NCBI RefSeq assembly: GCF_030285365.1
Contig: NZ_JASVDS010000011.1
Coordinates: 1-59,574, forward strand
Source of the DNA: Roseateles subflavus
GTDB lineage: Bacteria; Pseudomonadota; Gammaproteobacteria; Burkholderiales; Burkholderiaceae_C
Direction of reading: 5' to 3'
DNA length: 59,574 bases
A model generated the notes under the pieces. The model saw nothing but the letters and a program-made list of their open reading frames with translations. It was not told the DNA's origin and made no database searches. How positions within the stretch are numbered: position 1 is the first letter of the stretch; every line of letters begins with the position of its first letter. Shown one piece after another: positions 24,014 to 42,891 of the stretch. The translations under genes were made by a program, and so were the position numbers.

Positions 24014-24643
24014 TCACGCCACGGTCCGCCGTCTCAACAGCCCAAGGACCGTGGGGATCAGCGAGACCACAATGATCAACAGGATGGTCCGGCTCAAGTT
24101 CTGCCTCACCCAGGGGTGGTCTCCGATCACCCAGCCCAGCGACATCAGGCTGAGCACCCACAACGCACCACCAAGCACGTTGTAGGTCAGAAATCTTTGC
24201 GACGACATGGTGGCAAAGCCCGCTGCAAAGGGCGCAAAGCCGCGAAGCACAGGGACGAACCGGGCGATCACGATGGTCTTGCTGCCATGCCGGGCAAAGT
24301 GGGCATTGGCCATCGCATGCCCGCTGCAAATCCAGGGCCAGCGCCGGACCAGCCGTGTGCCGCAGTAGCGGCCCACGCTGTAGTTGAGAAGATCACCCGC
24401 AACGGCCGCAGCCACCAGCACCACGGCCGTCAGCGTGAACGGAAGATGACCTGCCGCGCAGAAGATGCCGACGACAAAGAGCATGGAATCACCCGGCAGG
24501 AACGGGAAGATGAGCGTCCCCGTTTCGGCGAAGATGATCAACGCCAGGAGCGCGATGGCCCATGTGCCATAGGCGGCACACCACCCGTGGAGATGGCTGT
24601 CGAAGTGGGACAGCAAATCGACAAAGTAGCTCACGACATCCAT
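24014..24643 (-). CDS. DedA-family membrane protein
   Basis: 209 aa. DedA hallmarks are ETGTLIFPFLPGDSMLF, GDLLNYSVGRYCG and the amphipathic segment FARFV-like IVIARFVPVLRGFAPFAAG. Family members act in phospholipid or undecaprenyl-phosphate flipping. I chose ATG 24643, 7 bases after the previous stop with GAGGT upstream. It is last in the leftward operon behind an outer-membrane protein, an RND exporter and an acyl-CoA ligase, which fits membrane-lipid handling. Confidence 0.85.
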   Translation of the reverse strand: MDVVSYFVDLLSHFDSHLHGWCAAYGTWAIALLALIIFAETGTLIFPFLPGDSMLFVVGIFCAAGHLPFTLTAVVLVAAAVAGDLLNYSVGRYCGTRLVRRWPWICSGHAMANAHFARHGSKTIVIARFVPVLRGFAPFAAGFATMSSQRFLTYNVLGGALWVLSLMSLGWVIGDHPWVRQNLSRTILLIIVVSLIPTVLGLLRRRTVA

Positions 24644-24650
24644 CGGGACC

Positions 24651-25949
24651 TCACCAGGCCGTGCTGAGCTCGGCAAAGGCCAGGGTGTTCCGGCGCAGAT
24701 TGCCCAGGAAGGAGTCGGGCGGTCCTCGCAGCAGATCGACCCCGATGGTGATCCTCATCGCGTCCGTGTAGGCATAGTTGAGGCGAGAACGCAGGAACCA
24801 GTCGTTCCGAGGGCGCGACCAGACCAGCAGCAGATCGGCATCGGCCCTCGACTCAGCAAAGGGCGTCGCATAGCGAACGCTGAACCCATGCTGATGGCGA
24901 TCCAGTTCGTTGCTCAGCAGCTCCTGGAAGGATTGCAGCATCTGAGACGCCGGCGACACAGCGCCCTGCCCTGCCCGCATACGGCGACCATAGATCTGGA
25001 ATGTCACTGCTTCCCGATCCCCCAGCCCCAGCTCCGCCCCAAGCACTCCCATGGCATAGGGCCTGCGTTCCGCCGTCAGCATGGCGCCTGGCGCTGTCGA
25101 GCGGTCCGGGTAGTCCACCACCGCAAGCTCTCCTCGGAAAACCCAGGCCCCCACGCTTGTGGCGGCATCCACCCCGAGCATGCGCATCGCACTCGGACGC
25201 AGTCCGAGCACCATGCCTGCCGGTCCGGCGTTGCGCAGGCTGATCGTGGGCAGCACGTCGTGCCCCCGGATGGCCGAGACCGACCAGTCGAGCCCCTCCC
25301 CTGACACCTCGTAGCGCAGCGCCTGGGTTGCGCTCACGGACGGCCGCTCACGCTGGATCGTGACACCAGGCACATTCGGCAAGGGCACGTGGCTCGACTT
25401 GAATCGATCCAGCAGGTGCCACGCCAGCCTCCCCGGCCCCGCGACACAGCTGCCATGAAGCCCGACAACGCCATCGCGCTGATCGGTCTCCCTGGCCACG
25501 AGCCGGGTCAGATCATGGGGCGACAGCAGATCGGTCGGGGTGAAGACGTCCGTCTTGCCCCATGAAACGAAGCGCTTGCCCACACTGGGCTGACACGGCA
25601 GCTGACGCCACTGCGCATAGGCCTCCTTGAGCCCCCAGGCCGAGCCCTCCTGTCGCGCGGCGCCATTCATGGCCCATCCCTCGATGCGCAGATGTGCACC
25701 GCCCGGGACCTTGGCCTCCAGTTCCAGTCTGGCCCGTCCAATGCCGACACCGGATTGCTGATCCAGCTGTCGGTTTGAAGACCACACGGAAGCGCCGAGC
25801 TCCCCTGACCAGCTGAGCGGCTCGGCAAGGGCGCCGCCACACAACGACGTCGCGACCAGTGCCCAGGTCATCGGCCGGACGAGACCGGTGATGCGAGCGC
25901 GAGCCGACCACTGGCCAGAAGGACGTGCGAAGGAACTCCCCTTGGGCAT
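24651..25949 (-). CDS. Outer-membrane beta-barrel protein (DUF1302-like)
   Basis: 432 aa. The signal peptide ends in SLCGGALA. The mature protein alternates short strands with aromatic girdles (for example LSWSGELGASVWSS, RARLELEAKV, FSVRYATPF, LRSRLNYAYTDAMRITIGVD). It contains VGKRFVSWGKTDVFTPTDLL, typical of DUF1302-type porins that accompany MMPL exporters. The start MPKGSSFARPSGQW is 11 bases after the RND stop. It is probably the outer-membrane partner of the fused exporter upstream. Confidence 0.75.
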   Translation of the reverse strand: MPKGSSFARPSGQWSARARITGLVRPMTWALVATSLCGGALAEPLSWSGELGASVWSSNRQLDQQSGVGIGRARLELEAKVPGGAHLRIEGWAMNGAARQEGSAWGLKEAYAQWRQLPCQPSVGKRFVSWGKTDVFTPTDLLSPHDLTRLVARETDQRDGVVGLHGSCVAGPGRLAWHLLDRFKSSHVPLPNVPGVTIQRERPSVSATQALRYEVSGEGLDWSVSAIRGHDVLPTISLRNAGPAGMVLGLRPSAMRMLGVDAATSVGAWVFRGELAVVDYPDRSTAPGAMLTAERRPYAMGVLGAELGLGDREAVTFQIYGRRMRAGQGAVSPASQMLQSFQELLSNELDRHQHGFSVRYATPFAESRADADLLLVWSRPRNDWFLRSRLNYAYTDAMRITIGVDLLRGPPDSFLGNLRRNTLAFAELSTAW

Positions 25950-25960
25950 GGTGAGGGGCC

Positions 25961-28900
25961 TCACTGCGCAGACAGACTGTTCGGCGAGAACTTGTCGTCG
26001 GCGACTGTCCCTCCGACGCGGAAGTCGGTGAAGGTGATGGTGGTGCTGTGTCCCGTCTGCAGATTGGCGCCCACCGCCCGCATGGGCTGCCACTTGCCGT
26101 TGGCAGCGTCGACCAGTTTGGTGTCGCTGAACGTGAACCGTTTGTAGGGCTGGCCTCCGAGATCGAAGGTCTCGACATAGCTCGTAGAAAAGTTGTCCTT
26201 GCGGATCCAGGTCACCCGCTTGCTGTACGCGCTCTCGCTCTTGATGGCGTCGGAGGCCGGCAGCGACTCCACGACATAGTGTGGAACACCGTCGCGCATC
26301 TGATCCGCCTGCAAGGAGTGCTTCCAGTCCTGCACCCGATGCCCCATCACGTCGCCATAGCTGAAGTCGGTGCCGATGAAGCTGTCACGCTTGTTGGAGG
26401 CCACCAGGCGCCGCACCTTCTTCATGGCAGGCAGGTAGACCCACATGTCATCGTCCTTGCCCGAACGCTCGATGAGCAGCGTCGAGGTGCCCTTGATGTC
26501 CGCCGGGGCGTCGAAGCGAACCAGCCGCATGGTGTCGACCTGGTTCGGCTGCAGCTTGGTCGCCATCGCCGCTTGCCGCGTCCGCCGCGCTCCCTCCTTG
26601 TTCTCCAATACAAACTCGGCCATGGCCTCCGAGGTGCTGAAGCGCGTAACGGCGGTGTTCCTTTCCATCACCTGCGTCGCGTCCACCGTGGCCGACCACG
26701 CCACACGTGAGTAGGTCAGAAAGCCTGCCGAGGCCACGACGACGAGCAGGACTGCGGCCAGGTCGCTGGAGCGACGCTTGAAGATGAAGGAAGGACGGGC
26801 CATGAGAACGACACTCGGAATGATCAGGAGGGCAGAGAAGACGCTGACGAGCATCGCCAGCACGATGAAGGACGACAGCCAGGTATGCACCTTGTAGTCG
26901 TAGGAGCACAGCAGCACGGCATAGCCCCCCGCCACCGCCGTGGCGACAAACAGGCAGGCCTTGCCGGCGGTCAGCAGCGCCTTGCGAACGCTGTCCTCCA
27001 AGGTGAGCCCCGAGGCGACGTACTCGCGCATGCGGTAGAGCAAGTAGATGGCGTAGTCAGCGCCGATGCCGACGGCCATGGCAGAGATCAGCGAATTGGG
27101 GATGTTCAGCGGAACGCCGAAGAAGCCCATGGCGCCGAACAGGAGCGACAGCACCACCAGCAGCGGCGCCAGCACAAGTGCGCCCGCGAGGACCGAACGA
27201 AACGCGATGACGGCCACCGCGAAAATGACACCCAGGATCTGGGCGATGTTGAGCAGCTTGCTGCGGACCATCACCTCGGTCACTGCAAGCGTCTGGGCGA
27301 CCTCCCCGCCGAACGACACCGCCACATGGGTCGGGAACAGCTGGCGGGTTTGCTTCTGCAGGTCCTTCACGAGCGCGTCGATTTCAGCATTGCTGTTCGT
27401 GCGCAGCATGATGGAGATCTTGGCGCGTCGATAGCCGTAATCCACGTGCGCGTTGAAGTCCTCCGGATCACCGGACATCGAATAGAGGAAGAGGTACTGC
27501 GCGATGAGGTCGCGGTCGGCCGGCATCTCGGCATCGCGCTTCTCGCCATTCGCCGCCTGGTGCATGCGAATGAGGAAGTCGTCGATCGACAGCGTCTTGC
27601 CGACGATCGGCTGCCCATTGGCGAACTGCTGCAGGCGGTGAATGGCAGTCAGCACCTCAGGCTGCTTGATTCCATCGGACGCCTGGGTGTCGACCATCAC
27701 GTACAGCACATTGGTGCCACCGGTCTGCGCATTCAGCAGGGTGTCATCGCGCTGGAGCGGCAGCGACTCCGCGAAGAAGCTCTTGCTGGCGTTGTCCACA
27801 TGCACCCGCTGCCCCCCCACGAGTGCGATGCCGACGATGACCATCAGTGACAGCAAGGCGAGACCGCGCTGCTTGTGGTTCAGTGCCAGCGACGCGAATC
27901 GACCGGCCAAACGATCCCAGAAGCGGACCTTGGTTTCCGTATCGATCTGCGCCAGGGACGGGGGCTTCAGGCTGGCACGCACCGCCGGCGTGAAGGTGAA
28001 TTCCAGGATGACGGCCGTCAGGATGCCGATGCCGGTGAACACACCGAAGGCCCGGACCGTTTCCACCTCGAAGACCACCAACGAGAAGAAGCCCAGCGCG
28101 GCCACCCCGCCGGCAATCACCAGCACAGGACCCACGGCACTGAGGGACTGCACGGTCGCGCGCCGGTTCGCCTGCGCTGGCTCCATGCCGTGGACCTTGA
28201 CGAGATCGATGTAGTGCTCGTAGTAGCGCTTGAGCAGCTGCACCGCATGCCCAGCCGCCACCGCCAGGATGAGAATGGGCGTGGGGGAATTGAAGATGTC
28301 CAGCGGAATCTTCATCAGGCCCATCACACCGACACCCCAGACCACCGACAGCAGTGCCGTCACCAACGGCAGGATCAAGCCCTGGCGTGTGCGAAACGCC
28401 TCGTAGTGAAGGAGGCCGATCACCAGCACGGCGATCGGGAACAGCCAGTTGATGCGATCGGCAAATACCTCCGCCTGATGGAGGAACACCGGGTTGCCAC
28501 TGAGGGAGATGTCGAAGTCCTTGGCGCTCTCTTCGCCAAGAATCTTGCGCAGGTCGGCCAGCATGGCACCGAAGCCGTTGGGGTTCTCCTTGAGCTCCAC
28601 CATGATGGTGGCGGTGCGCCAATCCTTGGAGACCACCGTTTCCCGGTAGATCGGGTTCTGCTCGATCCTCTGCTTCAGGGCCGCCACGGCTTCGGCGGTC
28701 GCCGGCAGCTGGCCTGCCGTCAGCAAGGGGCGAGCCTCGAAGCCATCGGCGGTGCCGGAGATGCCCTTGGCTTGGCGGGAGGCCAGGCTGAGCAAGGTGT
28801 TCTTCGAGACGCTGCTGGAGGCATAGAGCTTGTCCGTCATCCGCTGAACCGCTGCAAGCACCGGCGCCTGCAGCGCATCGCCCTGCTTCGGGGTGACGCC

Positions 28901-29173
28901 GATGACAACCAGATACTTGGAACCAAACACCTGCTCGATGGTGTTCGTGGCCTTGATGAAGGGATGGCTCTGCGGCACGACAGACGCCGGGTTGATGATG
29001 ACCTGCTGCTTGGCGGCAAACAGCCCGAAGAACACCGTCAACAGCAGGATGACCGCAATGACGGCCTTGCGCCATTCAACGATCCACTCGACATACTTTT
29101 CAAGCTTGAGGCTGCTGGAGACGCCCCCGACCCCATGCGGGGTGTCCACAATGACTTGAGTCGCTTGGTTCAT
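25961..29173 (-). CDS. RND (MMPL-type) lipid exporter fused to a LolA-like domain
   Basis: 1070 aa. Residues 1-800 are an MMPL/RND transporter: N-terminal helix KAVIAVILLLTVFFGLFAAK, a periplasmic loop, five clustered helices including ILILAVAAGHAVQLLKRYYE, then a second repeat ending near 810 with AMAVGIGADYAIYLLYRMRE. Residues of about 828-1070 form an outer-membrane lipoprotein-sorting (LolA-like, PF17131-type) domain with TMRLVRFDAPADIKGTSTLL, DDDMWVYLPAMKKVRRL and GTDFSYGDVMGH. These are usually two proteins. The fusion suggests that lipid handed over by the pump is carried straight across the periplasm to the beta-barrel encoded next. It lies 18 bases after the acyl-CoA ligase gene. Confidence 0.88.
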   Translation of the reverse strand: MNQATQVIVDTPHGVGGVSSSLKLEKYVEWIVEWRKAVIAVILLLTVFFGLFAAKQQVIINPASVVPQSHPFIKATNTIEQVFGSKYLVVIGVTPKQGDALQAPVLAAVQRMTDKLYASSSVSKNTLLSLASRQAKGISGTADGFEARPLLTAGQLPATAEAVAALKQRIEQNPIYRETVVSKDWRTATIMVELKENPNGFGAMLADLRKILGEESAKDFDISLSGNPVFLHQAEVFADRINWLFPIAVLVIGLLHYEAFRTRQGLILPLVTALLSVVWGVGVMGLMKIPLDIFNSPTPILILAVAAGHAVQLLKRYYEHYIDLVKVHGMEPAQANRRATVQSLSAVGPVLVIAGGVAALGFFSLVVFEVETVRAFGVFTGIGILTAVILEFTFTPAVRASLKPPSLAQIDTETKVRFWDRLAGRFASLALNHKQRGLALLSLMVIVGIALVGGQRVHVDNASKSFFAESLPLQRDDTLLNAQTGGTNVLYVMVDTQASDGIKQPEVLTAIHRLQQFANGQPIVGKTLSIDDFLIRMHQAANGEKRDAEMPADRDLIAQYLFLYSMSGDPEDFNAHVDYGYRRAKISIMLRTNSNAEIDALVKDLQKQTRQLFPTHVAVSFGGEVAQTLAVTEVMVRSKLLNIAQILGVIFAVAVIAFRSVLAGALVLAPLLVVLSLLFGAMGFFGVPLNIPNSLISAMAVGIGADYAIYLLYRMREYVASGLTLEDSVRKALLTAGKACLFVATAVAGGYAVLLCSYDYKVHTWLSSFIVLAMLVSVFSALLIIPSVVLMARPSFIFKRRSSDLAAVLLVVVASAGFLTYSRVAWSATVDATQVMERNTAVTRFSTSEAMAEFVLENKEGARRTRQAAMATKLQPNQVDTMRLVRFDAPADIKGTSTLLIERSGKDDDMWVYLPAMKKVRRLVASNKRDSFIGTDFSYGDVMGHRVQDWKHSLQADQMRDGVPHYVVESLPASDAIKSESAYSKRVTWIRKDNFSTSYVETFDLGGQPYKRFTFSDTKLVDAANGKWQPMRAVGANLQTGHSTTITFTDFRVGGTVADDKFSPNSLSAQ

Positions 29174-29191: not shown

Positions 29192-30715
29192 TTATGCCGC
29201 CGGACGCCCAGCGGAGATCTCGCGCGCCAGCAGGTCGGCCAGTTGCTGCTTCTTGACCTTGGCAGAGGCGGTGTAGGGAAACTCACGGACCTGGACGAAG
29301 TGGCGCGGCCGCCAGCCCTGGTACGCGCCGGCTAGCCGACGCTCCAAGGCCTCGATGCACGCGGCCGGGTCGGCCCCTTCCGCCAGGATCAAGGCGATGG
29401 CGGGCGCTTCATCCGCCAGCTTCACGAGGGCGACGTCCCGGACACCCGGGATGCGACACAGGTGTTCGACCTCCGAGGCACTGACCACCACTCCACCGGT
29501 CTGGGCCGGACGCAGGCTCTCGACCATCCTGTCGACCACCTGCAGACGGCCGTCGCCATTCCACAAGGCCCGGTCGCCACTGCACAGCCAGCCGCCGGGC
29601 TCCTCCGCCCGTTGAGCGATCCAATGTCCACGCACCTTGAGTTCCCCACTGCCCAGCGGGCAGTCCGCCTCGGTGCTGACATCACACTCGACACCAAACA
29701 CCGGGCGCCCATGCAGCAAGGGGCGCGCAGGCTGGTGGACTTCGATGGTGGCCAGTGGCGATGTCTCCGTCATGCCCCAGGCATGGCGGACTTCCACCCC
29801 CAGTCCATGGCTGATGAAGTCAGCCACCGCGCTCGGCAGACGGGTGCCGCCGACGATCGTCTTGCGCAAGGTCGTGAACTTCAGCCCCTGGGCTTGCATA
29901 TAGGCCGCCAAGGCCAACCAGTGCGCTGACACCGCACCCAGGATGGTCGCGCCCTGCCCTTCAATCCACTGGTACCACTGCGCGGGGTCCCGGCTGGGGG
30001 GCACCAAGAGCAGGTCCGCACCCACCAGTGGGCAGACGAAGGGGGCACCCCAGGCGCTGGCGTGGAAGGTCTGCATCAGCGGCATGACCCGGTCTGCACG
30101 GCTCACACCGAGCGCATCGGGCAGTGCGCAAGCCCAGGCATGCAACACCGTCGAGCGATGGGTGTACAGGGCCGACTTGGGCACCCCGGTCGTGCCAGAG
30201 GTGTAGCAGACGAACGAGGGCCAGGTCTCCTCGACCCGCTGTGCGCCGAGCAGCGCTCCCGAAGCCGGCGTCACCATCGGCCAGCGAGGCGCGTCGCAGG
30301 GCAGCACGCGAGCCAGGTCCTGGGTGGCTGCGTCATAGAGCACGGCCTTGAACCGGTTCGATTGCACGATGGCTGCCAGGTGGGCCGCCTCGTGCAGCGG
30401 ATTCAGCAAATGCGTCACCAGACCCAGTCGCAGCGCGCCGTAGAGCCAGGCCAGTTGCTCCGCTGAGCTGAACCCCAGGTTGACGATGGCATCGCCCGCT
30501 GCGAGGCCGTGACTACGAAGCTCGTACGAGATCCGGTCCGCCTGCTGAGCAAGATCGGCGTAGCTGGTCTCACGCACCGTCCCGGTGGCGTCAAGACTGG
30601 TCACCCGCTTGTCGGCATGAACACGTGCGGCGTGCTCCAGGAGGGCGTGCACTTGAAGTGCTTGGAACTCCACCTTGGCAGAGACCGCCGCAGAAAGGGC
30701 ATGTGAGGTAGTCAT
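29192..30715 (-). CDS. Acyl-CoA synthetase (AMP-forming fatty-acid ligase)
   Basis: 507 aa ANL-superfamily ligase that activates a carboxylic acid via acyl-AMP to acyl-CoA. It has the P-loop YTSGTTGVPKS, ATP/substrate motif WGMTETSPLATIE, hinge GDRALWNGDGRLQVVDR and the C-terminal catalytic lysine in PYTASAKVKKQQL. Length and motifs match medium/long-chain acyl-CoA synthetases. It is first in the leftward run with the RND-LolA exporter. Its promoter shares a box with pstS, and the predicted -10 ends six bases before the ATG, so the message may be leaderless. There is no convincing Shine-Dalgarno sequence. Confidence 0.9.
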   Translation of the reverse strand: MTTSHALSAAVSAKVEFQALQVHALLEHAARVHADKRVTSLDATGTVRETSYADLAQQADRISYELRSHGLAAGDAIVNLGFSSAEQLAWLYGALRLGLVTHLLNPLHEAAHLAAIVQSNRFKAVLYDAATQDLARVLPCDAPRWPMVTPASGALLGAQRVEETWPSFVCYTSGTTGVPKSALYTHRSTVLHAWACALPDALGVSRADRVMPLMQTFHASAWGAPFVCPLVGADLLLVPPSRDPAQWYQWIEGQGATILGAVSAHWLALAAYMQAQGLKFTTLRKTIVGGTRLPSAVADFISHGLGVEVRHAWGMTETSPLATIEVHQPARPLLHGRPVFGVECDVSTEADCPLGSGELKVRGHWIAQRAEEPGGWLCSGDRALWNGDGRLQVVDRMVESLRPAQTGGVVVSASEVEHLCRIPGVRDVALVKLADEAPAIALILAEGADPAACIEALERRLAGAYQGWRPRHFVQVREFPYTASAKVKKQQLADLLAREISAGRPAA

Positions 30716-30720: not shown

Positions 30721-30766
30721 CATGCTAGGGAGACCCGACGCCGCCCTCAATGGAAGCGATGTACTA
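30721..30766 (-). promoter_or_regulatory. Predicted activator box and -10 for the acyl-CoA ligase
   Basis: Minus strand: TAGTACATCGCTTCCATT (30766-30749), then 17 bases, then TCCCTAGCAT (30731-30722). The box and downstream element recur upstream of pstS with the same spacing. If TAGCAT is the -10, the box centres near -43, the usual place for a class II activator. Confidence 0.55.
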
Positions 30767-30806: not shown

Positions 30807-31652
30807 TCAAGCGAACTTGAGATAGGCGCTCGTGAGGTCTTCCGCCGGGTCCTCGAAGATCGCGTCGGCGTCACCGAACTCGATCATTCGACCGACACCG
30901 TCGACCTTCCACATCACCCCCAGCTTGCTGGCCAGACGGCGCGCCTGGGCAAGGCTATGGGTGACCATGAGGACGGTGTGTGTGGTGGAGAGCTTCTGGA
31001 TCAGTTCCTCGATGCGCTGCGTGGCGATGGGATCCAGCGCGCTGCAGGGTTCGTCCATCAGCATGACCGTCGGATTCAGCACCAGGGCGCGCGCCAGACA
31101 CAAGCGTTGCTGCTGGCCGCCGGACAAGGCCATGGCGCTGTCTTGCAGGCGTCCCCGGACCTCCTCCCACAAGCCCACTTCCTCCAGCGCCCGCTTGATT
31201 CTGTCGTCGCGCTCCTCCCGGTCCTTCACCCCATGCTGCTTCAGTGCGAACTCCAGGTTCCGCCAGATGGAGAACGGGAAGGGATTCGGCCGTTGGAACA
31301 GCATGCCCACCTGCCGGCGCAAGTGCACGACATCGCGCTCGATCCATGTGTCCCGAAGCCAGCTGATGCCCACGGAACCATCGACACAGCAGCCGGGCAC
31401 CATGTCCGTCAACCGGTTGATGCAACTCAGCACTGTCGACTTCCCGCAGCCGGAGGGCCCGATGAGCGCCGTGATGGCATTGCGCGGCGCATCGAAGCTC
31501 ACGTCTTCGACAACCGCCTGTCTACCGTAGCGAACCGAGATGTTCCGGACTTCCAGGGCCCCTGCTGAAGCGGCGCGCCGCCTGCCGGTGGCTTCATGCA
31601 AGTAGGTCACGGACGCTCGCTCCAATGAGCTTTGTGCAGGTGTGTTCGTCAT
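30807..31652 (-). CDS. pstB: Phosphate-type ABC transporter ATP-binding protein
   Basis: 281 aa. Walker A is IGPSGCGKST, then the family-specific FQRPNPFPFSIWRNL, signature ALSGGQQQRLCLARAL and Walker B VMLMDEPCSALDP. It energises uptake of phosphate or its analogue arsenate. The start overlaps the permease stop by ATGA. In arsenite-oxidase islands a dedicated pst copy is common and is usually taken to secure phosphate in the presence of arsenate. It is followed by the ligase promoter, with no clear terminator. Confidence 0.92.
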   Translation of the reverse strand: MTNTPAQSSLERASVTYLHEATGRRRAASAGALEVRNISVRYGRQAVVEDVSFDAPRNAITALIGPSGCGKSTVLSCINRLTDMVPGCCVDGSVGISWLRDTWIERDVVHLRRQVGMLFQRPNPFPFSIWRNLEFALKQHGVKDREERDDRIKRALEEVGLWEEVRGRLQDSAMALSGGQQQRLCLARALVLNPTVMLMDEPCSALDPIATQRIEELIQKLSTTHTVLMVTHSLAQARRLASKLGVMWKVDGVGRMIEFGDADAIFEDPAEDLTSAYLKFA

Positions 31653-34316: not shown

Positions 34317-34361
34317 ATGCTAGGGAAGAGTCGCCTGCCAGTGAATGGAATCTATGTACTA
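34317..34361 (-). promoter_or_regulatory. Predicted activator box and -10 for pstSCAB
   Basis: Minus strand: TAGTACATAGATTCCATT (34361-34344), 17 bases, then TCCCTAGCAT (34326-34317). The box is 16 of 18 identical to the one before the acyl-CoA ligase, and the second element is 10 of 10. It lies in the 175-base divergent region between pstS and the ADO homologue. Confidence 0.55.
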
Positions 34362-34462
34362 TTTCACGAATCAAGGGGGTGCCAAACAATCCTGCGCAAC
34401 AACTCAGGCTGCGGACTTCACACGTCCACTGCCTTTCCCAACTCATGAATGGAGATTGCGCA

Positions 34463-35302
34463 ATGAACGATATCGCCGACGTCGAAGGCGTCCAAAGCCC
34501 CGTGGACCTGCGTGGGGGCAGCCGCCGCGAAGAGTTGAGCGGTGCGCACGGCACGGGCTATTTCAATCTGCTCTCCTACATCACGTCCAACGCCATCTCC
34601 GGCGAGATCATGGCCGTCGAGAACTACTCGGAGATGGTGCCGCTGATGGCCGACACCGAGTCGAAGATCGAGACGGTGAAGCAGGCCCATGAAGAGTCCA
34701 AGCACATCCTGATGCTGGCGAGCCTGGGCAAGCGCCATGACTACCACGTGATGCGCGAGATCGTTGAACCCCAGTGGTACAACATCCGCCGCCACTTCAG
34801 CACCGCGGTGGCCAACAAGGACCTCGCCGCCTGCCTGGTGATCCAGGACCTGATGACGGAAACGATGGCCATCGTGCTGTACAAGACGCTCGTCCGCCAA
34901 GGCGACCCTGACACCTCTGCCCTCGCCGCGAAGATCCTGGAAGACGAGCTGGAGCACCTGGACATCGGCATGCAGCGCATCAAAGGCATGCTGGCGCGCG
35001 ATTCGGAGGGCGTCCACGAAAGCCTGAAGTGGGCCCACCACCGCGTGATGCCCGAGCTCTTCAGCATGGTCAGCACCAGCTGCCATTTCCTGTGCGACCG
35101 CCTGAACATCGACTGTGGCGCGCTGTCCCTCGGCGAGCTCAAGACCGACATTGACGCCATCCGGGTCGAAGCCCTGGACGCCTACATCGAGACGTTGGAC
35201 AAGGCCGGCTTCGACCCGCGCATCACGGCGGATCTCATCGAGTCCATGCAAGCCTACGGCGGCACCCCGGCCGGCGCTCCGGCAGCAACCGCCACCCACT
35301 GA
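34463..35302 (+). CDS. Ferritin-like diiron protein, homologue of aldehyde-deformylating oxygenase (ADO)
   Basis: 279 aa. All six diiron ligands of cyanobacterial ADO are present: Glu48 (SGE), Glu78 and His81 (EESKH), Glu133 (MTETMA), Glu162 and His165 (EDELEHLD). Spacings are 30, 3, 52, 29 and 3; in the Synechococcus enzyme they are 28, 3, 52, 29 and 3, from memory. CLVIQDLMTETMAIVLY and ALDAYIETLDKAGFDPR also align with ADO. ADO turns a Cn fatty aldehyde into a Cn-1 alkane plus formate. GGAG lies 8-9 bases before ATG 34463. The reductase two genes downstream and the divergent acyl-CoA ligase could supply the aldehyde. The family is rare outside cyanobacteria, so a changed substrate is quite possible. 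Confidence 0.82.
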   Translation: MNDIADVEGVQSPVDLRGGSRREELSGAHGTGYFNLLSYITSNAISGEIMAVENYSEMVPLMADTESKIETVKQAHEESKHILMLASLGKRHDYHVMREIVEPQWYNIRRHFSTAVANKDLAACLVIQDLMTETMAIVLYKTLVRQGDPDTSALAAKILEDELEHLDIGMQRIKGMLARDSEGVHESLKWAHHRVMPELFSMVSTSCHFLCDRLNIDCGALSLGELKTDIDAIRVEALDAYIETLDKAGFDPRITADLIESMQAYGGTPAGAPAATATH

Positions 35303-35368
35303 CTGTTGACGCAGCCACATGCGCACCCCTGAGCGATCGGGGGTGTGCATGGACTTTGGAGCAAGCCC

Positions 35369-36280
35369 ATGGGTGACTGGTTCATTGAGTTCCTGAAATT
35401 TCTGATCATGGATGGGACCCTTCTGGTGGGGCTCTTCCTGCTCATCACCTGGGCCGTGGTGCTGCTTCAGCAGCGACTTCCCTTCCAGCAGACGCAAAGC
35501 CGTCTCGTGGGCTCGTCGGGCTGGGGGGCTTCGTTTGCGGCGAGCGTGGGGGGCGTGATCACGCCGTTCTGCTCATGCTCGACCATCCCCGTTCTCAACG
35601 GGATGCTGCGGGCGGGTGTCGGATTCGCTCCGAGCTTCGCCTTCCTGGTCTCGTCCCCGGTGGTGAACGAGGGGGTTCTGATCTTGCTGTTCTCCACGGG
35701 ACGCTTTGTCGCAGGGGTGACCTTCCTCGTGGTGGGGCTCATCCTGACCACGACCGCGGGCGTGGTCGCTCAGAAGCTGGGACTGGATCGTCACATCGTG
35801 AACAAGCCGAGCACCTTGGCGGCGGGCACCTTCGTGGGCAGTGCCACGCCGTCGTGGCCCGGCTGGAAGGCCGCAGGCAAGTTCGCCTGGCTTTCGGCGG
35901 TCCAGGAGCTGCGTGGCGTCGGCACCTACCTCGCCGTCGGTCTTCTCGTCGGCGGCGTGATCTATGGCGCCGTCCCCAAGGAGATGCTTGGCTCGGCGGT
36001 CGGCACGGTGCCGGACTGGGCGCTCTACCTGATCTGCTCGCTGATCGGCCTGCCGCTCTATGTCTCGCCGATCGCTGCCATTCCCATCGGCTTTGCACTC
36101 ATCGAGAAGGGCTTCCCCGTTGGCCCTCTCGTCACGTTCCTCGTGGCGGCCATCGGCACAAGTCCCCCGGAGATCGTCCTGCTCATGCGGATGTTCCGGC
36201 TTCCCCTGGTGCTTGCGCACACCGTCACCGTTGTCCTTTGCGCCCTGCTGCTCGGCATTGCCGTTGCCCTTGCTCTTTGA
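35369..36280 (+). CDS. DUF318/ArsP-type permease
   Basis: 303 aa with about eight membrane helices. The family signature is TPFCSCSTIPVLNGML, with the conserved CSCS, and SSPVVNEGVLILLFSTGRF. The superfamily includes ArsP, which exports trivalent organoarsenicals, and YraQ-like permeases often paired with a thioredoxin-fold protein in arsenic operons. Here the next gene encodes such a protein. GGAG lies upstream of ATG 35369. Its neighbours (ArsM-like protein, arsenite oxidase) favour an arsenic-containing substrate, but the signature alone does not prove it. Confidence 0.8.
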   Translation: MGDWFIEFLKFLIMDGTLLVGLFLLITWAVVLLQQRLPFQQTQSRLVGSSGWGASFAASVGGVITPFCSCSTIPVLNGMLRAGVGFAPSFAFLVSSPVVNEGVLILLFSTGRFVAGVTFLVVGLILTTTAGVVAQKLGLDRHIVNKPSTLAAGTFVGSATPSWPGWKAAGKFAWLSAVQELRGVGTYLAVGLLVGGVIYGAVPKEMLGSAVGTVPDWALYLICSLIGLPLYVSPIAAIPIGFALIEKGFPVGPLVTFLVAAIGTSPPEIVLLMRMFRLPLVLAHTVTVVLCALLLGIAVALAL

Positions 36281-36309: not shown

Positions 36310-36738
36310 ATGTTCGGACTGTTCAGCTCCAAGAAGACCGAAGAATCCATGCAACTCGTGCAGCAGGCGCTGGACCCCCATGTGGTGGCCATCGTTTCCG
36401 CCAGCTGCTGCATGTCAGGAGTGGGCGCGCTCGACGAGCAGCTGAAGTCGGTAGCGGCACAAGCCCTGAAGGAAGCCCATCTCGACTGGCCGGTGCTCTT
36501 CGTCACCGTCACCGAGGCACAAGGCGCCCTGGGCAAGCTGTCCGGCAAGCTCAGCGATGCCGCGGCAGCCACCGCGGCCCAGGTCAGCGAGCTCTTCGTC
36601 TCGTCCGGACTCGGCGCATTTCCCGTCCTGATCGTGAATCAACGCGTCGTGTCCTATGGCGGCGTCCCCGATCTCGCCCTCGTTCTCAAGAATCTGCCCA
36701 CGGCTCCGAAGGCGGTCGCGCATGAAGACGCTGCTTGA
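36310..36738 (+). CDS. Thioredoxin-fold protein with ArsD-like vicinal cysteines
   Basis: 142 aa. The motif SASCCMSG (Cys38-Cys39) lies near the N-terminus, where ArsD has its CC pair (PAMCCSTG). A cis-proline-type segment occurs later (GLGAFPVLIVNQRVVSYGG). The protein probably binds As(III) or a soft metal and hands it to the permease encoded upstream, or it reduces a disulphide. AGGAG lies 7 bases before the ATG. It overlaps the reductase gene by 17 bases. Confidence 0.65.
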   Translation: MFGLFSSKKTEESMQLVQQALDPHVVAIVSASCCMSGVGALDEQLKSVAAQALKEAHLDWPVLFVTVTEAQGALGKLSGKLSDAAAATAAQVSELFVSSGLGAFPVLIVNQRVVSYGGVPDLALVLKNLPTAPKAVAHEDAA

Positions 36739-37924
36739 TCGTCCCCGCCATGGCGGGCATGTCTTTCTCACGGGTGGGACCGGCTATCTGGGTGCCTTGC
36801 TGGCCGCCGAAATGCTGCGCCTCGGCTGGGCCACACGCATCGTCATCCCCACCCGGCGCGCCGGTGATCCGGGTCTCTCGCCCGAGCTGGCGGCTGAACT
36901 CTCGGCGGCGGGTCTGGACCTTGAGGCCGCCCGATCCCTCATCACGCTCGTCCCCTGGGGAGGCGCGGAGACCTGCACCCGGCAAGAGCTGCAGCAGTTG
37001 ATGACGTCCTTCGGCATTGACACGGTCGTTCATAGCGCAGGCTGCCTGGACTACTTCAACGAGGGTGCCCTGGAGATGGTCAACGTGAACTTCACGCGGA
37101 CCCTGGCTCAAGCGGCGTCGGCGGCGGGCGTTTCGTTCTTCGCGTTCGTCTCCACCGCCTATGCCGCCGGCTACTCGGGTGCGACGGTGCCCGAATCCCT
37201 GCTGCGCGAGCCCGATCGCGACCCGACGGCCTACACCTCGACGAAGCGCCAGGCCGAGCACATCGTCGCCCAGTCCGGCATTCCCTTCCTCATCCTGCGT
37301 CCGTCCATCGTCATCGGCAACGCCTGTGATGGCCGCTACAGCGGCAAACGCTACGGGCTCTACCAGCAATGGATGGGCGTCGAGCGTCTGCTGACGGATC
37401 GTTATCACGAGACGCTGCATACCGTCGCGACGGACCAGCCGTTGAACTTGCTGCACCAGGATGCGTTCCAGCGGGCGGCAGGAGCGGCTTTGAGCTGGAT
37501 GCCTGACAACGCCGTCATGAACGTCGTCACTGACAGCGCGCTGGCACCGTCCATGAAGGACTTGTGGATCCAGCTGTGCGAGGTCACGCGCCCCAAGCAG
37601 ATCGTGTTCTATCCCAGCATGGATGACGTCGACCTCAAGGCCATCAACCTTCGCCAGCGGGCCTACCTGAGCTTCGCCCAGACCAACCTGGAAATCGGGG
37701 CCTATGGGTGGTCCTTCGACCGGGGCTGGCTGCAAGTGCTGCGCGCCGAGCGCGGCCTGTCGTTCACGGAGACGACGGCAGCCACCATCCGCACATGCCA
37801 GGACCGCTTCGTCGAGAACTCGGCGCTCTTCCGTCAGTACCGGACCCGGTTCTCGCCACATCTGAGCGCCGACATCGCCGTGCTCGAGCCTTCCGACTTC
37901 ATTCCAACCAACGCAGCCGCTTGA
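36722..37924 (+). CDS. NAD-dependent fatty acyl (thioester) reductase, SDR type
   Basis: 400 aa. The N-terminal Rossmann motif is VFLTGGTGYLG (Gly18-Gly24). The catalytic pair is Tyr171 and Lys175 (AYTSTKRQAEHIV), and the middle part (DTVVHSAGCLDYF, FVSTAYAAGYSG) is that of NAD_binding_4 / male-sterility-type acyl reductases. Such enzymes reduce acyl-CoA or acyl-ACP to aldehyde or alcohol. Beside an ADO homologue, the natural reading is aldehyde supply. It is not the cyanobacterial acyl-ACP reductase by sequence. The start overlaps the preceding gene by 17 bases. Confidence 0.8.
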   Translation: MKTLLDRPRHGGHVFLTGGTGYLGALLAAEMLRLGWATRIVIPTRRAGDPGLSPELAAELSAAGLDLEAARSLITLVPWGGAETCTRQELQQLMTSFGIDTVVHSAGCLDYFNEGALEMVNVNFTRTLAQAASAAGVSFFAFVSTAYAAGYSGATVPESLLREPDRDPTAYTSTKRQAEHIVAQSGIPFLILRPSIVIGNACDGRYSGKRYGLYQQWMGVERLLTDRYHETLHTVATDQPLNLLHQDAFQRAAGAALSWMPDNAVMNVVTDSALAPSMKDLWIQLCEVTRPKQIVFYPSMDDVDLKAINLRQRAYLSFAQTNLEIGAYGWSFDRGWLQVLRAERGLSFTETTAATIRTCQDRFVENSALFRQYRTRFSPHLSADIAVLEPSDFIPTNAAA

Positions 37925-37926
37925 TC

Positions 37927-38973
37927 GTGAGAGAACAACCTTGGCAGCAGAGTCTGCAATCCACCTGCCAGCAGATGGCAGCCTCGCTCGGCAACGAGCG
38001 CCACGACGCTGGGAATCACTGCGTCTGGTGGGGCGCCAGCCACCCCGAGATCCTGCAGGCATGCAGGCCCGCCCTGCCCGGCGCCGTCGTTGTCGCTGAT
38101 GCGGATGCACGCGCGCTTCGTCGCGCGATGGCGGCGGCAGGCCAGCAGGCGACGGCCTTGCGTCTGGTGGACCTCCACGATCTGCGCCTGGATACCGCGG
38201 GGGTGGAAAGTGCACTGTGCGGCCTCGCCCTCAAGAGCATCGATGCCTATCAGGCGATGCGTGACCGGCTCGCGCAACAGGCGGCGGCCGCTCCGGCCGT
38301 CGGCGATGCATCGGCCAGCGTGGTGGTGATGGACATGCTGCTGAACCGCGTTCCTGCAGACGGCATGGATGAACTCTTGGCGGAGGCGTTCAGAGTTCTG
38401 CCCAGACATGGGCAGTTGATGGCGGTCGTGCTGCTCGCTGACGAGCCCGTCGCTGGCATGCACAACGTTCGATTCGGCACCGATGGCATCAAGGCATTCC
38501 TTCCCTCAGAAGGTGCCGTGCTGGGGGCCTTTGAGCGTGCCGGGTTCCACGGCCTTCAATGGGCCTTCTGCGCTGATGAGAACCCCGTCATCATTGACCG
38601 CATCGAAGGTGCCGACGTGCGACTGGTCCTCGTGAAGGCCACGAAGGGCAAGCAGGGGCCTTGCTATGAGCTGGGGCAGGCGGTCGTCTACAAGGGGCCC
38701 TGGAGCCAAGTGGCCGACGATGACGGGCATGTCTATCCCCGCGGTGCCCGCGTGGCCGTTTGCGCCAAGACGTATGACCTGCTCATGAAGCCGCCCTACG
38801 CAGGGCAGTTCGTGGGATTGCGCAGCGTCAATGAACCCGCGCTCGCCAGCGCCGAACTCTTCGATTGCCATACCCCGGCGTTGCGCCCTCCGGCCGTCAC
38901 GAAGGGCCTCGCTGAGTTTGCCGGTGCGACGGCCCCCTCCTCCGCCTGCGCCCCCGGCAGCGGCTGCTGCTGA
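37927..38973 (+). CDS. ArsM-like methyltransferase-fold protein with degenerate SAM site
   Basis: 348 aa from GTG 37927; ATG 37975 is an alternative, and neither has a good ribosome-binding site. The C-terminal domain (VVYKGPWSQVADDDGHVYPR, VAVCAKTYDLL) matches the ArsM C-terminal domain of arsenite methyltransferases, and the protein ends ACAPGSGCC. The core keeps LLAEAFRVLPRHGQLMAVVL. The glycine-rich SAM loop (usually DLGCGxG) is replaced by VWWGASHPEIL, and the arsenic-binding Cys of SNCVLNL is Met in VVMDMLLNRVP. It may have lost methyl transfer and kept arsenic binding, or use another cofactor. It lies 2 bases after the reductase stop. Confidence 0.7.
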   Translation: MREQPWQQSLQSTCQQMAASLGNERHDAGNHCVWWGASHPEILQACRPALPGAVVVADADARALRRAMAAAGQQATALRLVDLHDLRLDTAGVESALCGLALKSIDAYQAMRDRLAQQAAAAPAVGDASASVVVMDMLLNRVPADGMDELLAEAFRVLPRHGQLMAVVLLADEPVAGMHNVRFGTDGIKAFLPSEGAVLGAFERAGFHGLQWAFCADENPVIIDRIEGADVRLVLVKATKGKQGPCYELGQAVVYKGPWSQVADDDGHVYPRGARVAVCAKTYDLLMKPPYAGQFVGLRSVNEPALASAELFDCHTPALRPPAVTKGLAEFAGATAPSSACAPGSGCC

Positions 38974-38993: not shown

Positions 38994-39515
38994 ATGGGCA
39001 AGAGCCTTGATCTGCAGCGACGCGTTTTCCTCAAGAGCTCCGGTGCCGCGGGTGCTGTCGCCGGCTTGGCAGGGACCTTCGCCGCCCCGGGTGAAGCGGC
39101 CGCCGCGACTCCCGTGCATTGCCCGGCGGGTGATGCGACGCCCCCCGCACTCTCATTGGGCCGGCTGGGCACGCTCCGCGTCGGCGAGCCCCGCAGCTTC
39201 CACTACCCGGACGCACGATCACCGTGCCTGTTGATCCGCATGGGTATGCCGACCGAGGGCGGCGTGGGTCCGAACCAGGACGTCGTGGCGTTCAGCCAGC
39301 TGTGCACCCACATGGGCTGCCCGGTCAGCTATGAATCTGGCCTGCGCTTGCTGCAGTGCCCGTGCCACTACACGACCTTCGACCCGGAACGCGGAGGGGC
39401 GATGGTCTGCGGGCAAGCCAGCACCGACCTGCCGCGCATTGACCTCCGCCACGACAGCAAGACCGACATCATCACTGCCACCGGCGTCAACGGTCGCATC
39501 TTCGGCCGCCTGTGA
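38994..39515 (+). CDS. aioB: Arsenite oxidase small subunit (Rieske protein)
   Basis: 173 aa. The twin-arginine signal [18 protein letters not shown] exports the folded Rieske protein together with AioA. The [2Fe-2S] ligands are in CTHMGC and CPCHYTTFD. Both extra cysteines of the classical disulphide are present. It takes electrons from the molybdenum subunit and passes them to a cytochrome or cupredoxin. GGGAG lies 6 bases upstream. The stop is followed closely by aioA. Confidence 0.93.
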
Positions 39516-39523
39516 ACCTACGC

Positions 39524-41995
39524 ATGAAGCACTTGACCACGACGCTCCCACCTGTCGGTGCCCAGCGCACGCAGATGACCTGCCACTTCTGCATCGTCGG
39601 TTGCGGCTACCACGTCTACAAATGGGATGAAGGCCGGAAGGGGGGCCCGGCGCCTCAGGAAAATGCACTCGGCCTGGACTTCCGCCAAGGACTGCCGGCC
39701 CTGAGCGCCTCCATCTCCGACACGATGGCGCAAGTCATCGTGGACCCTCGAGGCAAGCGATCCCACGTCCTGATCGTTCCCGACCGCGGATGCGTCGTGA
39801 ATGCCGGTCTGTCTTCGCACCGCGGGGCAAAGATGGGGCAGTACACCTACAGCCCCGAGGGCCTCACGCGCGACCGGCTGAAGCACCCTCGCCTGCAACG
39901 CCACGGACGCTGGATGGACCTCGACTGGGAGCAGGCGCTCGAGCTGTATGCGCGATTCACCCAGCGCGTTCTCGACGAAGTCGGCCCGGATGGCTTGTTC
40001 TTCGACTGTTTCGATCACGGCGGCGCCGGGGGCGGCTTCGAGAACACATGGGGGACAGGCAAGCTGATGTTCTCGGCGCTTCGGACCCCCATGGTCCGCA
40101 TCCACAACCGGCCGGCCTACAACTCCGAATGCCACGCGACGCGCGACATGGGCATCGCAGAGCTGAACAACAGCTACGAAGACGCCCAGTTGGCGGACTG
40201 CCTGTTCGCGATCGGCTGCAATCCTTACGAAACGCAGACGAACTATTTCCTCAATCACTGGATCCCGAATCTGAACGGCAGCACCGCAGGCAAGCGCGCC
40301 GCGCGCTTCCCGGGCGAATCCTGTCCGCCGACCCGGGTCATCATCGTCGACCCTCGCCGGACAAAGACGGTGGCCGTTGCCGAGCAGGTGGCGGGCAAGG
40401 ATCGTGTCCTCCACCTGGATATCAGGCCGGGCACGGACACCGCCCTTTTCAACACCCTTCTCACCTACGTGGTGGACCAGGGCTGGCATGACACGGCCTT
40501 CATTGCGAGAGCCACCAAGGGCTTCGACCAGGCCATGGTCGCGGCTCGCATGCCCCTGGCGGAGGGGGCCCGCATCACGGGCATTCCCGAAGCGAAGCTG
40601 GTCCAGGCCGCCGAATGGGCCTATCGCCCCAAGGCCGGCCTGGCCCGCCCCCGTACCTTCCATGCCTACGAGAAGGGCATCATCTGGGGCAACGACAACT
40701 ACAGGATCCAGAGTGCGCTGGTCAACCTGGCGCTGGCCACCCACAACGTGGGACGGCGTGGCACGGGGGTATGCCGGATGGGCGGCCATCAGGAGGGCTA
40801 CACCCGCCCGCCCTACCCCGGTGATCGGCAGATCTACGTTGACCAGGAGCTGCTCCACGGAAAGGGCTTGATCTACACGGTCTGGGGAACCAATCCCTTC
40901 CAGTCCACCCTGAACGCACAAGCGCATCGCGCAGCGTTGGTCCGTCGTTCACGCATCGTCTCCGAGGCCCTTGATGCAGCGCGAGGGGCCTCGATCAAGG
41001 AGCTGGCCGACATCGCCTTTGATGCGTGCAGGACGCGAGGCGGCTTGTTCCTGGTCAGCATCAACCTGTATGCCGACCCGCTCTCGGAGGCTGCACACCT
41101 CATGTTGCCCGCCGCACAGCCTGGAGAGATGAATCTCACCAGCATGAATGGCGAGCGCCGGCTCCGCTTGACCGAGCGCTTCATGGATCCCCCGGGCGAG
41201 GCACTTCCGGACTGCCTGATCGCCGCGCGGATCGCCCGGACGCTGCAGGCGCTCTACCGCGAGTCGGGTCGGCACGAACTGGCCGCCCGGTTTGCCGGCT
41301 TCGACTGGGTGACGGAAGAGGATGCCTTCAATGATGGGTTCCGTCGCGCCGGCACACCGGGAGCCCCTCCCATCGACTCGCAGGGTGGCGAGACGGGCCA
41401 TCTCGCGACATATCACCGCTTGCGGCTCGCCGGCAACAACGGCGTCCAGCTGCCGATCCAGCGCGCCGAAGGCGACAAGCTCATCGGCACGGAGATGCTC
41501 TACGAGGACGAACGGTTCAGCACCGCCGACGGCAGGGCGACGTTCCTGACGGCTGCATGGAACGGATGGCCTGACATGGTCACGGCTCAGCAGTCCAAGC
41601 ATCGCTTCTGGATCAACAACGGCCGAACCAACGAGGTGTGGCAGACCGGCTATCACGATCAGCATCAGCCGTCCTGGGATGAGCGCATGCCAGCGGCCCT
41701 GCTGGAGATGAGTCCTGCGGATGCAAGCTCGCTGGGCCTCCAGGGAGGCGACATCGCCGAAGTGTTCAATGACCACGGCAGCACGTTTGCGCTCGTGCGC
41801 CTCGAGCCGACTGCCAAACCCGGTCAGACCTTCATGACCTTTGGCCAGAAGCGCGGTACGGCGGGGGATGTCGTCACGCCCTGGGTCGACCGACATGTCG
41901 TCCCCTACTACAAGGGCACGTGGGCCAGCATCCGGCGCGCGGCAGGCATCCGGGCATGGCGGGAACTGAGCTCACCCAAGTCCCGCATCGCCTGA
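39524..41995 (+). CDS. aioA: Arsenite oxidase large subunit (molybdopterin)
   Basis: 823 aa periplasmic enzyme oxidising arsenite to arsenate. With ATG 39524 ([11 protein letters not shown]) the numbering runs one behind Alcaligenes faecalis AioA. Cys20, Cys23 and Cys27 (CHFCIVGC) and Ser98 hold the 3Fe-4S cluster. His194, Glu202, Arg418 and His422 (CRMGGHQEG) correspond to the arsenite-pocket residues His195, Glu203, Arg419 and His423. GTG 39512 is an alternative start overlapping aioB. No aioXSR, cytochrome c or moeA genes follow, so regulation and electron acceptor differ from the classical island or lie elsewhere. Confidence 0.95.
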
Positions 41996-42147
41996 ACCGG
42001 CGCCAACAACTGAAAACATTGACATTAGGGGGGGCACACCCCGGTGCCGGCCCAGTTCCGCCGTTGTCTCGTATAGTTTCTACCTAGATTTTGCAGTGGC
42101 CCTGTATCAAGGCCGCACATCCATAAGAGGCAGGTACGAGGCGGATC

Positions 42148-42891
42148 ATGGGAGACGAGCAGGACAAGGCGTGGGCTGCGCTGGCGCAGCAACTGGTCAG
42201 CACCGAGCTGGCCCCGCTGGACATCGACTGCTTCGCCGCAGGCCTCTCGAACAAGAGTCAGGACGCCGTACGGATCGAGGAGATCCTGTTCTTGAGTGGC
42301 GAGATTCACGAGGAGCCGAAGACGCTCCAGAGCCACTGTGCGTCCCTGATCGCCATCTGGAGCGCCATGCAGACGCCGACGCTGATCGATCTGGGCCATT
42401 GCGGATGCGTTGGCCGAAAAATGCTTCTCATGGAGCCCCGCCACGGACGGCGGTTCGCCATTCATGCCAGCCCCATCGACCACGATCGCCTGCTCTTCGT
42501 CGTCTTCAGTGCCACGAAGCCGTGGGCCGACGCTGAATTCGTGAAGCGCCTGGCCAAGGAATTCGTGGCCACCGCCCAATCGATCTGGGACGACCTTCCC
42601 GCTGCGAAGCCCCCGGCCGCATCGGTGGATGCTGCGACCCAGGACCTGGACTGGTACCAGTTCACCTCACGCGAGCTGGAGATTCTCAAGCTCGTGGCTG
42701 ACGGCTTGAGCAACAAGCAGATTGCCAAGCAGCTGGGCTCCAGTCCCAACACGGTCCGCAACCAGATTCACGCGGTCTTTCGCAAGACGGGTGTTTCGAA
42801 TCGCACCGAATTGGCAATGAAGACCCTCACGACAAGCGCGGAGGCCCCGAGTCGCAGCTCAGATCGCGTGCCGGCGGTGAAAGCGGGCTGA
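42148..42891 (+). CDS. LuxR-family transcriptional regulator
   Basis: 247 aa. The C-terminal GerE/LuxR helix-turn-helix is FTSRELEILKLVADGLSNKQ followed by IAKQLGSSPNTVRNQI. The N-terminal 160 residues are an unassigned sensor region, neither a receiver nor a recognisable autoinducer domain. It contains several cysteines, including a Cys-Gly-Cys in DLGHCGCVGRK. It lies 152 bases after aioA with GAGG before the ATG. As the only regulator in the locus, it is the best candidate to bind the boxes before pstS and the acyl-CoA ligase. Arsenic sensing by its cysteines is speculation. Confidence 0.85.
   Translation: MGDEQDKAWAALAQQLVSTELAPLDIDCFAAGLSNKSQDAVRIEEILFLSGEIHEEPKTLQSHCASLIAIWSAMQTPTLIDLGHCGCVGRKMLLMEPRHGRRFAIHASPIDHDRLLFVVFSATKPWADAEFVKRLAKEFVATAQSIWDDLPAAKPPAASVDAATQDLDWYQFTSRELEILKLVADGLSNKQIAKQLGSSPNTVRNQIHAVFRKTGVSNRTELAMKTLTTSAEAPSRSSDRVPAVKAG

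Follow-up and report, generated by a model that had tools for sequence, protein, structure and literature searches.

The divergent locus at positions 24014–42891 of a 59,574-nt stretch of DNA from Roseateles subflavus (contig NZ_JASVDS010000011.1, GCF_030285365.1; the whole stretch is referred to below as the window) contains a conserved set of genes joining an ADO-like diiron protein and an acyl reductase to proteins of arsenic families. Some arsenic-linked lipid chemistry at this locus is, in our judgement, quite probable, and the chances are about even that the locus is a horizontally spread module making a long-chain organoarsenical (an arsenolipid) that is moved to the outer membrane. The evidence consists of gene conservation, gene fusion, gene adjacency, metal ligands, cysteines, protein folds and a shared upstream element. 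A previous reading made from the letters of the window (the sequence-only reading) had proposed an arsenic-bearing hydrocarbon or lipid, with arsenite oxidation as the headline link. That interpretation was half right: the arsenic–lipid idea is better supported than could be known from the window, through ArsM–ADO fusions, an arsM-type gene between the ADO and reductase genes, an adjoining ars operon and conservation across phyla, but the link to arsenite oxidation was not borne out.

All genes named in the sequence-only reading were present, intact and oriented as it stated. The rightward arm (forward strand) comprised, in order, genes for the ADO-like protein (34463–35302), an ArsP_1-family permease (35345–36280), a CC thioredoxin-fold protein (36310–36738), an SDR reductase (36722–37924), an ArsM-like protein (37921–38973), aioB (38994–39515), aioA (39512–41995) and, at its end, a LuxR-type (GerE) regulator (42148–42891; PF00196, 59.9 bits). 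The divergent leftward arm (reverse strand) comprised pstS, pstC, pstA, pstB, an AMP-forming ligase, an RND-LolA fusion, an outer-membrane-type protein and dedA. Comparative analysis covered 20 loci (the window, L013–L029, L111 and L112). A scan of 84,980 species genomes with exact peptide patterns yielded 16 loci, which is a lower bound. The same divergent locus was found again in Pseudomonas, Lysobacter and others, and the gene set, without aioBA and dedA, was kept across genomes and phyla. Variant 1, with the order ADO–ArsP–CC protein–SDR–ArsM-like–LuxR, was found in 11 loci (the window, L013–L017, L025, L026, L029, L111 and L112), while variant 2 (L018–L022) consisted of ADO–ArsP–CC protein–SDR. 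An arsM-type gene replaced those for ArsP and the CC protein, between ADO and SDR, in L023 (from a betaproteobacterial metagenome-assembled genome, MAG), and an ArsM–ADO fusion was followed by SDR in L024 and L027 (from actinobacterial MAGs). ArsP and the CC protein thus stood between ADO and SDR in 16 loci. The SDR gene lay downstream of ADO in the same run in 19 of the 20 loci, and in all 19 that were long enough to judge, the contig of L028 breaking off 270 bp past ADO. For so rare a family as the ADO-like one, this pairing of ADO homologue and acyl reductase goes beyond chance. L111 and L112 are probably not independent, because their ADO genes are equally similar to that of the window.

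Strong relatives of the ADO-like protein are scarce: a scan of 399 genomes of the order gave 2 with such a relative (a third match, in G205, with 24% identity and an E-value of 8.5e-4, was not counted), and one of 398 genomes of the phylum gave 1, that of the window (7 weak-match genomes not counted). They were also present in 5 of 358 genomes of the genus of the Pseudomonas carrier, three of them known from the first scan, and in 1 of 376 genomes of the phylum of the actinobacterial carrier (11 weak-match genomes not counted). Within these 376 genomes no ArsM–ADO fusion was found beyond the known strong one, and no ADO relative was found in the plasmid collection at an E-value of 1e-5. Weak ADO-like ferritin relatives (L061–L068 and L092–L105; E 5e-11 to 7e-4) were also recorded, some genomes having two copies.

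The ADO-like protein matched PF11266 with 64.8 bits (cut-off 28), and its predicted structure (pLDDT 86.7) retrieved only ADO structures at Foldseek ranks 1–26, with 18–24% identity to solved ADOs. The six diiron ligands, E48, E78, H81, E133, E162 and H165, at positions known from ADO structures and placed by alignment to 4pgk, were invariant in 17 of 17 family members. The earlier label of an ADO homologue is thus supported for the fold and the ligands; it does not extend to canonical ADO, given a score of 64.1 bits against the equivalog TIGR04059, far below the cut-off of 222.65. Two further cysteines, C207 and C211, were likewise invariant in all 17 members and a third, C218, occurred in at least 90%; judging from the alignment, canonical ADO presumably lacks this triad. 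A C-terminal cysteine tail ending in CC was found on the ADO protein in L018–L024, L027 and L028, while in variant 1 the CC tail was on the ArsM-like protein and not on ADO.

Arsenic and the ADO-like enzyme were joined in a single reading frame in L024 and L027, which encoded an arsenite methyltransferase plus an ADO domain (NF008823, 267.3 and 277 bits, cut-off 263); the two fusions were 65% identical over 546 aligned positions. NF008823 was by far the best-scoring family for the arsM-type gene of L023 too, at 247.6 bits, just below that cut-off. In L019 (Pelomonas aquatica), a run of arsR, arsI/CadI (135.2 bits, cut-off 116), two arsC-type genes, a MIP channel gene and arsH (408.2 bits, cut-off 292.25) was followed by an arsR divergent from the ADO operon, arsR also being above its cut-off. 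One of the two arsC-type genes was scanned and fell below its cut-off; the product of the other shared 84% identity with an arsC-type protein encoded next to arsD elsewhere in the window genome. Altogether, an arsenic-family gene beyond ArsP and the CC protein was present in 15 of the 20 loci, as the ArsM-like gene in 11 and as a fusion, an arsM-type gene or an ars neighbour in 4.

For the ArsM-like protein of the window, the name given in the sequence-only reading fits the C-terminal domain and not the protein as a whole, which had no Pfam match and fell far below the ArsM cut-offs (NF040538, 57.6 vs 500 bits; NF038099, 34.8 vs 400 bits). Its second half matched the C-terminal domain of the two-domain ArsM from three carrier genomes (hhalign probability 94.9, E 4.2e-8, 165 columns), a type that we take to be the arsenosugar ArsM. 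Four cysteines, C248, C281, C349 and C350, the last two forming the terminal CC, were invariant between the ArsM-like protein and the three ArsM sequences, and the protein with its conserved C-terminal cysteines was present in 11 loci. A profile search with the ArsM-like family gave no significant match among PDB sequences. Canonical ArsM was considered as a general partner of the module and rejected: it scored above 160 bits in 7 of 18 carriers, 3 of which also exceeded the curated cut-off, and among the 9 variant-1 genomes it was found in 1. A two-domain ArsM gene adjoined PstS-like stretches in an overlapping frame in L035 (Denitromonas; by eye), which suggests another arsM–pst neighbourhood.

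The permease was well above the Pfam cut-off for ArsP_1 (PF03773, 122.5 vs 32.3 bits). The CC protein, with its invariant Cys33–Cys34 pair, may resemble ArsD in its predicted structure (pLDDT 89.7), with ArsD entries at ranks 1–5, 7 and 8 of the Foldseek search of the PDB, at weak E-values of 0.027–0.12. Over the family of 13 members (E ≤ 1), the ArsD Pfam model was matched by 8 (best 2.7e-4) and Thioredoxin_3 by 11 (best 6.9e-5). The window protein scored 14.2 bits (E 0.054) against the ArsD model, below the cut-off of 27; its hhalign alignment to ArsD covered the last 40 columns only, and the family profile had no significant match among PDB sequences. A third cysteine, presumably an ArsD feature, was absent from the window protein. 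True ArsD was present in 2 of the 18 carriers, outside the ADO locus. One of these was the window genome itself, where a true arsD on contig C17 (L070; PF06953, 150.5 bits, protein ending in CC..CC) adjoined arsR- and arsC-type genes, indicating that ordinary arsenic resistance is separate from the ADO locus in this genome. The SDR protein was assigned to the thioester-reductase-type acyl reductases by PF07993 (NAD_binding_4, 70.1 bits); it scored 60.7 bits against TIGR01746, below the cut-off of 213.35, and the YTxxK motif was present in 17 of 17 sequences.

The left arm, defined as pst plus RND-LolA, was present in 9 of 10 judgeable variant-1 loci; it was missing in L016 and could not be judged in L026, where the contig ends. 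Nearest to the ADO gene in the window was the PstS-type oxyanion-binding protein (33439–34287; PF12849, 148.1 bits), the best TIGR02136 match of the genome at 176.1 bits, below the cut-off of 206.6. The PstC-type (32536–33423) and PstA-type (31649–32539) permeases, named by eye, were kept as neighbours in 8 other loci, and the PstB-type ABC ATPase (30807–31652), also named by eye, was 56–65% identical in 8 other loci. The AMP-forming acyl-CoA ligase family gene (29192–30715; PF00501, 176.6 bits) was found in 8 of the 9 left-armed loci, with no match in L029. An MMPL/RND transporter fused to a LolA-like periplasmic lipid carrier (25961–29173; PF03176, 111.8 bits; PF17131, 167.2 bits) was 64–72% identical in the 8 other left-armed loci, where it was adjoined by a homologue, 41–44% identical, of the outer-membrane-type protein (24651–25949; no Pfam match). 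The last gene, dedA (24014–24643; DedA/VTT-domain membrane protein, PF09335, 60.4 bits), which the sequence-only reading had counted as a member, is probably outside the conserved unit: no match was found in the three other loci that reach past the outer-membrane protein gene, the remaining loci stopping near or before that point.

Outside variant 1, an amino-acid-type ABC importer, an OsmC-like protein and a MacB/FtsX exporter were encoded downstream in L020, L021, L022 and L023, with a LolA-like protein after the exporter in L020, L021 and L023 (the L022 stretch is too short). L018 and L019 were read in part. A LolA-like carrier was thus present with both exporter types, RND and MacB/FtsX. 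The importer varied between Pst, PhnD and amino-acid types; in L024 the SDR gene was followed by ABC genes with a binding protein of the PhnD type (TIGR01098, 175.8 bits, above the cut-off of 112.05). In L028, positions 513–2030, next to the ADO homologue at the contig end, encoded a phosphate transporter of the PHO4 family (201.8 bits) and what looked by eye like a small SelW/Rdx-like protein.

The intergenic region between pstS and the ADO gene contained a 20-bp element (34343–34362, forward strand) that could be aligned across all 7 of the intergenic regions set side by side. The pattern derived from these seven regions matched exactly in 10 of the 11 variant-1 loci, the exception being L016; L026, L111 and L112 matched even though they were left out when the pattern was built. 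At up to 3 mismatches, 2 matches were found in the window against 0.03 expected, the second at position 30748 with 3 mismatches. The element is a candidate operator common to the two arms, to which the LuxR-type regulator might bind.

Arsenite oxidase genes are present in the window, as the sequence-only reading had claimed. Both subunits were above their cut-offs (AioA, TIGR02693, 1172.7 vs 359.05 bits; AioB, the Rieske subunit, TIGR02694, 160.3 vs 95.65 bits), and the claim of intact active sites held for the Fe–S motifs, CHFCIVGC in AioA and the Rieske pair CTHMGC/CPCH in AioB. The ArsM-like gene was separated from luxR by 69–125 bp in 8 of 8 measured variant-1 loci, and L111 and L112, outside the measured set, had the same order. 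In the window, aioBA sits between these two genes, whereas the DNA read for the other 19 loci showed no aioBA; aioBA is an addition to the module in the window genome. Of the 399 order genomes, 16 had an aioA above the cut-off (17 when counted at E ≤ 1e-100), and it coincided with a strong ADO relative in one, that of the window; given 2 and 16 carriers among 399, chance would put both genes together in about 0.08 genomes, too few to test the proposed co-occurrence. Among the 18 carriers, 3 had an aioA above the cut-off, including the window genome, and in the two others aioA and the ADO gene were on separate contigs; one of these scored 432.7 bits and may be an iodate-reductase relative. Arsenite oxidation was accordingly rejected as a core part of the system.

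The locus looks acquired by the window genome, since its GC content is below that of its flanks (0.60–0.67 over the 16–44 kb stretch, 0.65–0.71 to the left and 0.70–0.73 to the right) and the ADO gene occurs in 1 of 3 genomes of the genus. The left flank contained filamentous-phage-like genes, including a replication-type protein and a Zot-like ATPase (17425–22929, by eye), and, near the left end of the window, a single open reading frame of 2570 amino acids (754–8466). To the right were copper-resistance-type genes (43260–52795, by eye), comprising CusF-like and cupredoxin-like genes, a two-component system and a P-type ATPase; copper-type genes were also seen by eye upstream of the ADO operon in L020 (Azohydromonas).

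Under the arsenolipid reading, the Pst-type importer would take up arsenate and/or phosphate, and As(III) would be bound by thiols in the ArsD-like CC protein and in the C-terminal cysteine domain of the ArsM-like protein, a true ArsM methylating it in the fused versions. The ligase and the SDR reductase would convert a fatty acid into a fatty aldehyde, which the ADO-like diiron enzyme would deformylate, the alkyl group ending on arsenic. The RND-LolA transporter and the outer-membrane protein would then export the lipid, and ArsP may expel small trivalent organoarsenicals. From these gene assignments we infer the identity of the substrates, the direction of the pathway and its export step. 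More specifically, and more doubtfully, the ADO-like enzyme might transfer a Cn-1 alkyl group to As(III), bound to thiols or methylated by ArsM, and so form the carbon–arsenic (C–As) bond of odd-chain arsenic hydrocarbons. The trapping of an alkyl radical on As(III), which the sequence-only reading had suggested, is one conceivable mechanism. The C15 and C17 chains of common arsenic hydrocarbons, to which that reading also pointed, would fit the Cn-1 products of C16 and C18 aldehydes. Dimethylated arsenic hydrocarbons (dimethylarsinoyl products) are not assured in the window genome, which has no canonical ArsM (best NF008823 match, 53.7 bits); its product may be an alkyl-arsenical without methyl groups, or the ArsM-like protein may do the methylating.

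Several observations weigh against the arsenolipid reading. Its chemistry and product are predictions from gene content, which, being of the same enzyme classes, would fit either synthesis or breakdown. The fusions of L024 and L027 and the arsM-type gene of L023 all come from MAGs, and 11 of the 15 loci with a further arsenic gene depend on the ArsM-like protein, itself below the ArsM cut-offs. All 6 variant-1 sequences of this protein that were aligned have other residues in place of the GxGxG S-adenosylmethionine (SAM) motif and the SNC/GEC cysteines of the catalytic half, so that it may not methylate; canonical ArsM (>160 bits) was missing from 8 of 9 variant-1 genomes searched, that of the window included. 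The NCBIfam matches of the permease were all below cut-off (SaoE, 78.4 vs 325 bits; SO_0444 Cu/Zn efflux, 67 vs 300 bits), and the CC protein matched Thioredoxin_3 at least as often as ArsD. Beside the L019 operon, the scanned arsC (73.1 vs 174.3 bits) and the MIP channel (56.1 vs 171.25 bits) were below their cut-offs and the ArsR model was a generic metalloregulator model, while in L018, L020, L021, L022 and L028 no arsenic gene beyond ArsP or the ArsD-like protein was found in the DNA read.

The same genes might instead serve the breakdown or detoxification of organoarsenicals with long chains. In that case the ADO-like oxygenase would strip arsenic of its alkyl chain by oxidation, SDR and ligase would pass the resulting aldehyde on to beta-oxidation, and the ArsP and ArsD-like proteins would handle the freed arsenic. 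A ligase, an SDR and a diiron oxygenase are also coherent in this direction, and ArsP and, in Pelomonas, ArsI and ArsH belong to families known for organoarsenicals. However, the methyltransferase fusion suits building over cleaving, the relatives of NAD_binding_4 and thioester-reductase proteins usually reduce acyl thioesters, and the RND-LolA and MacB-LolA carriers point to export, which leaves degradation unlikely although the strongest of the alternatives. Somewhat less probable still is an alkane or aldehyde lipid module induced by arsenic as a membrane stress response, with arsenic as a signal or toxic load and not part of the product. Cyanobacterial ADO and acyl-ACP reductase do make alkanes (PMC4094844; this and the other articles cited are drawn on through excerpts), and the ArsR gene adjoining the operon would serve regulation, but the fusion of ArsM to ADO and the arsM-type gene inside an operon tie arsenic to the enzyme, and the added conserved cysteines and CC tails also count against this reading. 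We consider it improbable that the system serves another thiophilic element or an unrelated lipid, its arsenic families being so by descent only. The five loci without clear arsenic genes, the varying importers, the copper-type genes seen by eye in Azohydromonas and in the window flank, and the equally good non-arsenic relatives of the permease and the CC protein would all suit such a system; against it stand three kinds of arsenic link (fusion, operon and ars neighbour) plus the insertion of aioBA in the window. Least probable, and very much so, is arsenite oxidation as an integral step, as the sequence-only reading had it. In its favour, aioBA belongs to the rightward run, where it comes right after the ArsM-like gene, and pst is known to occur beside aioBA (PMC7533571); against it stand the 19 loci in which no aioBA was found, the single joint genome in the order and the scarcity of aioA among carriers, with one of its three scores low.

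Known bacterial C–As bonds are made by SAM-dependent enzymes, bisenarsan, with an EPSP-synthase route, being a proposed exception (PMC12159101), and arsinothricin is made with the radical-SAM enzyme ArsL and ArsM (PMC8552651). According to an excerpted review, arsenic occurs in lipids of phosphate-limited bacteria, Pst1 carries arsenate, the existence of strains lacking arsM points to some other way of making such lipids, and the incorporation of arsenic into lipids by such bacteria is a knowledge gap (PMC7533571). An algal arsenolipid study likewise states, on the occurrence of arsenic hydrocarbons, that several arsenic-cycling pathways are yet unknown (PMC11009773). No description of the gene set of the locus was found in the open-licence PMC papers searched, subscription papers and preprints lying outside the search, and genes for attaching arsenic to fatty chains seem not to have been described before. 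If the ADO-like enzyme does form the C–As bond, the locus would represent a third natural route to such bonds, one that uses an ADO-family diiron enzyme with a ferritin-like fold, and the first genetic route to arsenic hydrocarbons. It supplies defined genes, named strains and a fused enzyme for direct study of the arsM-free arsenolipid gap.

Each of the known systems shares part of this gene content. The aio–pst arsenic islands also have pst genes beside aioBA (PMC7533571), but the pst genes of the locus belong to a unit that exists without aioBA, and the neighbours of aioBA in the window are the ArsM-like gene and luxR, not aioXSR. The bisenarsan bsn cluster of Streptomyces likewise joins arsenic and an acyl chain in a bacterial cluster, and its C–As bond is also proposed to form without SAM enzymes, but the excerpted accounts give EPSP-synthase and mutase homologues plus a polyketide synthase, with no ADO (PMC12159101, PMC6939163). 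The arsenosugar route (ArsM plus ArsS; PMC8552651, PMC12159101) has in common the C-terminal cysteine-bearing domain of the two-domain ArsM; unlike that route, no radical-SAM match was found among the locus proteins scanned, and the catalytic half of the ArsM-like protein is degenerate. The arsinothricin genes arsQML of Burkholderia gladioli are comparable in forming, within an ars operon, a small cluster that encodes an ArsM-type protein, a transporter and an enzyme specialised in the C–As bond, but they use the radical-SAM ArsL for that bond and, as far as the excerpt describes them, are without lipid genes (PMC8552651). The cyanobacterial alkane pathway (acyl-ACP reductase plus ADO) shares the ADO fold, the six diiron ligands and a fatty-acyl reductase partner. 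The locus ADO differs from it in being 18–24% identical and far below TIGR04059, and the locus as a whole in having a reductase that matches SDR/thioester-reductase models, extra cysteines, CC tails and arsenic partners.

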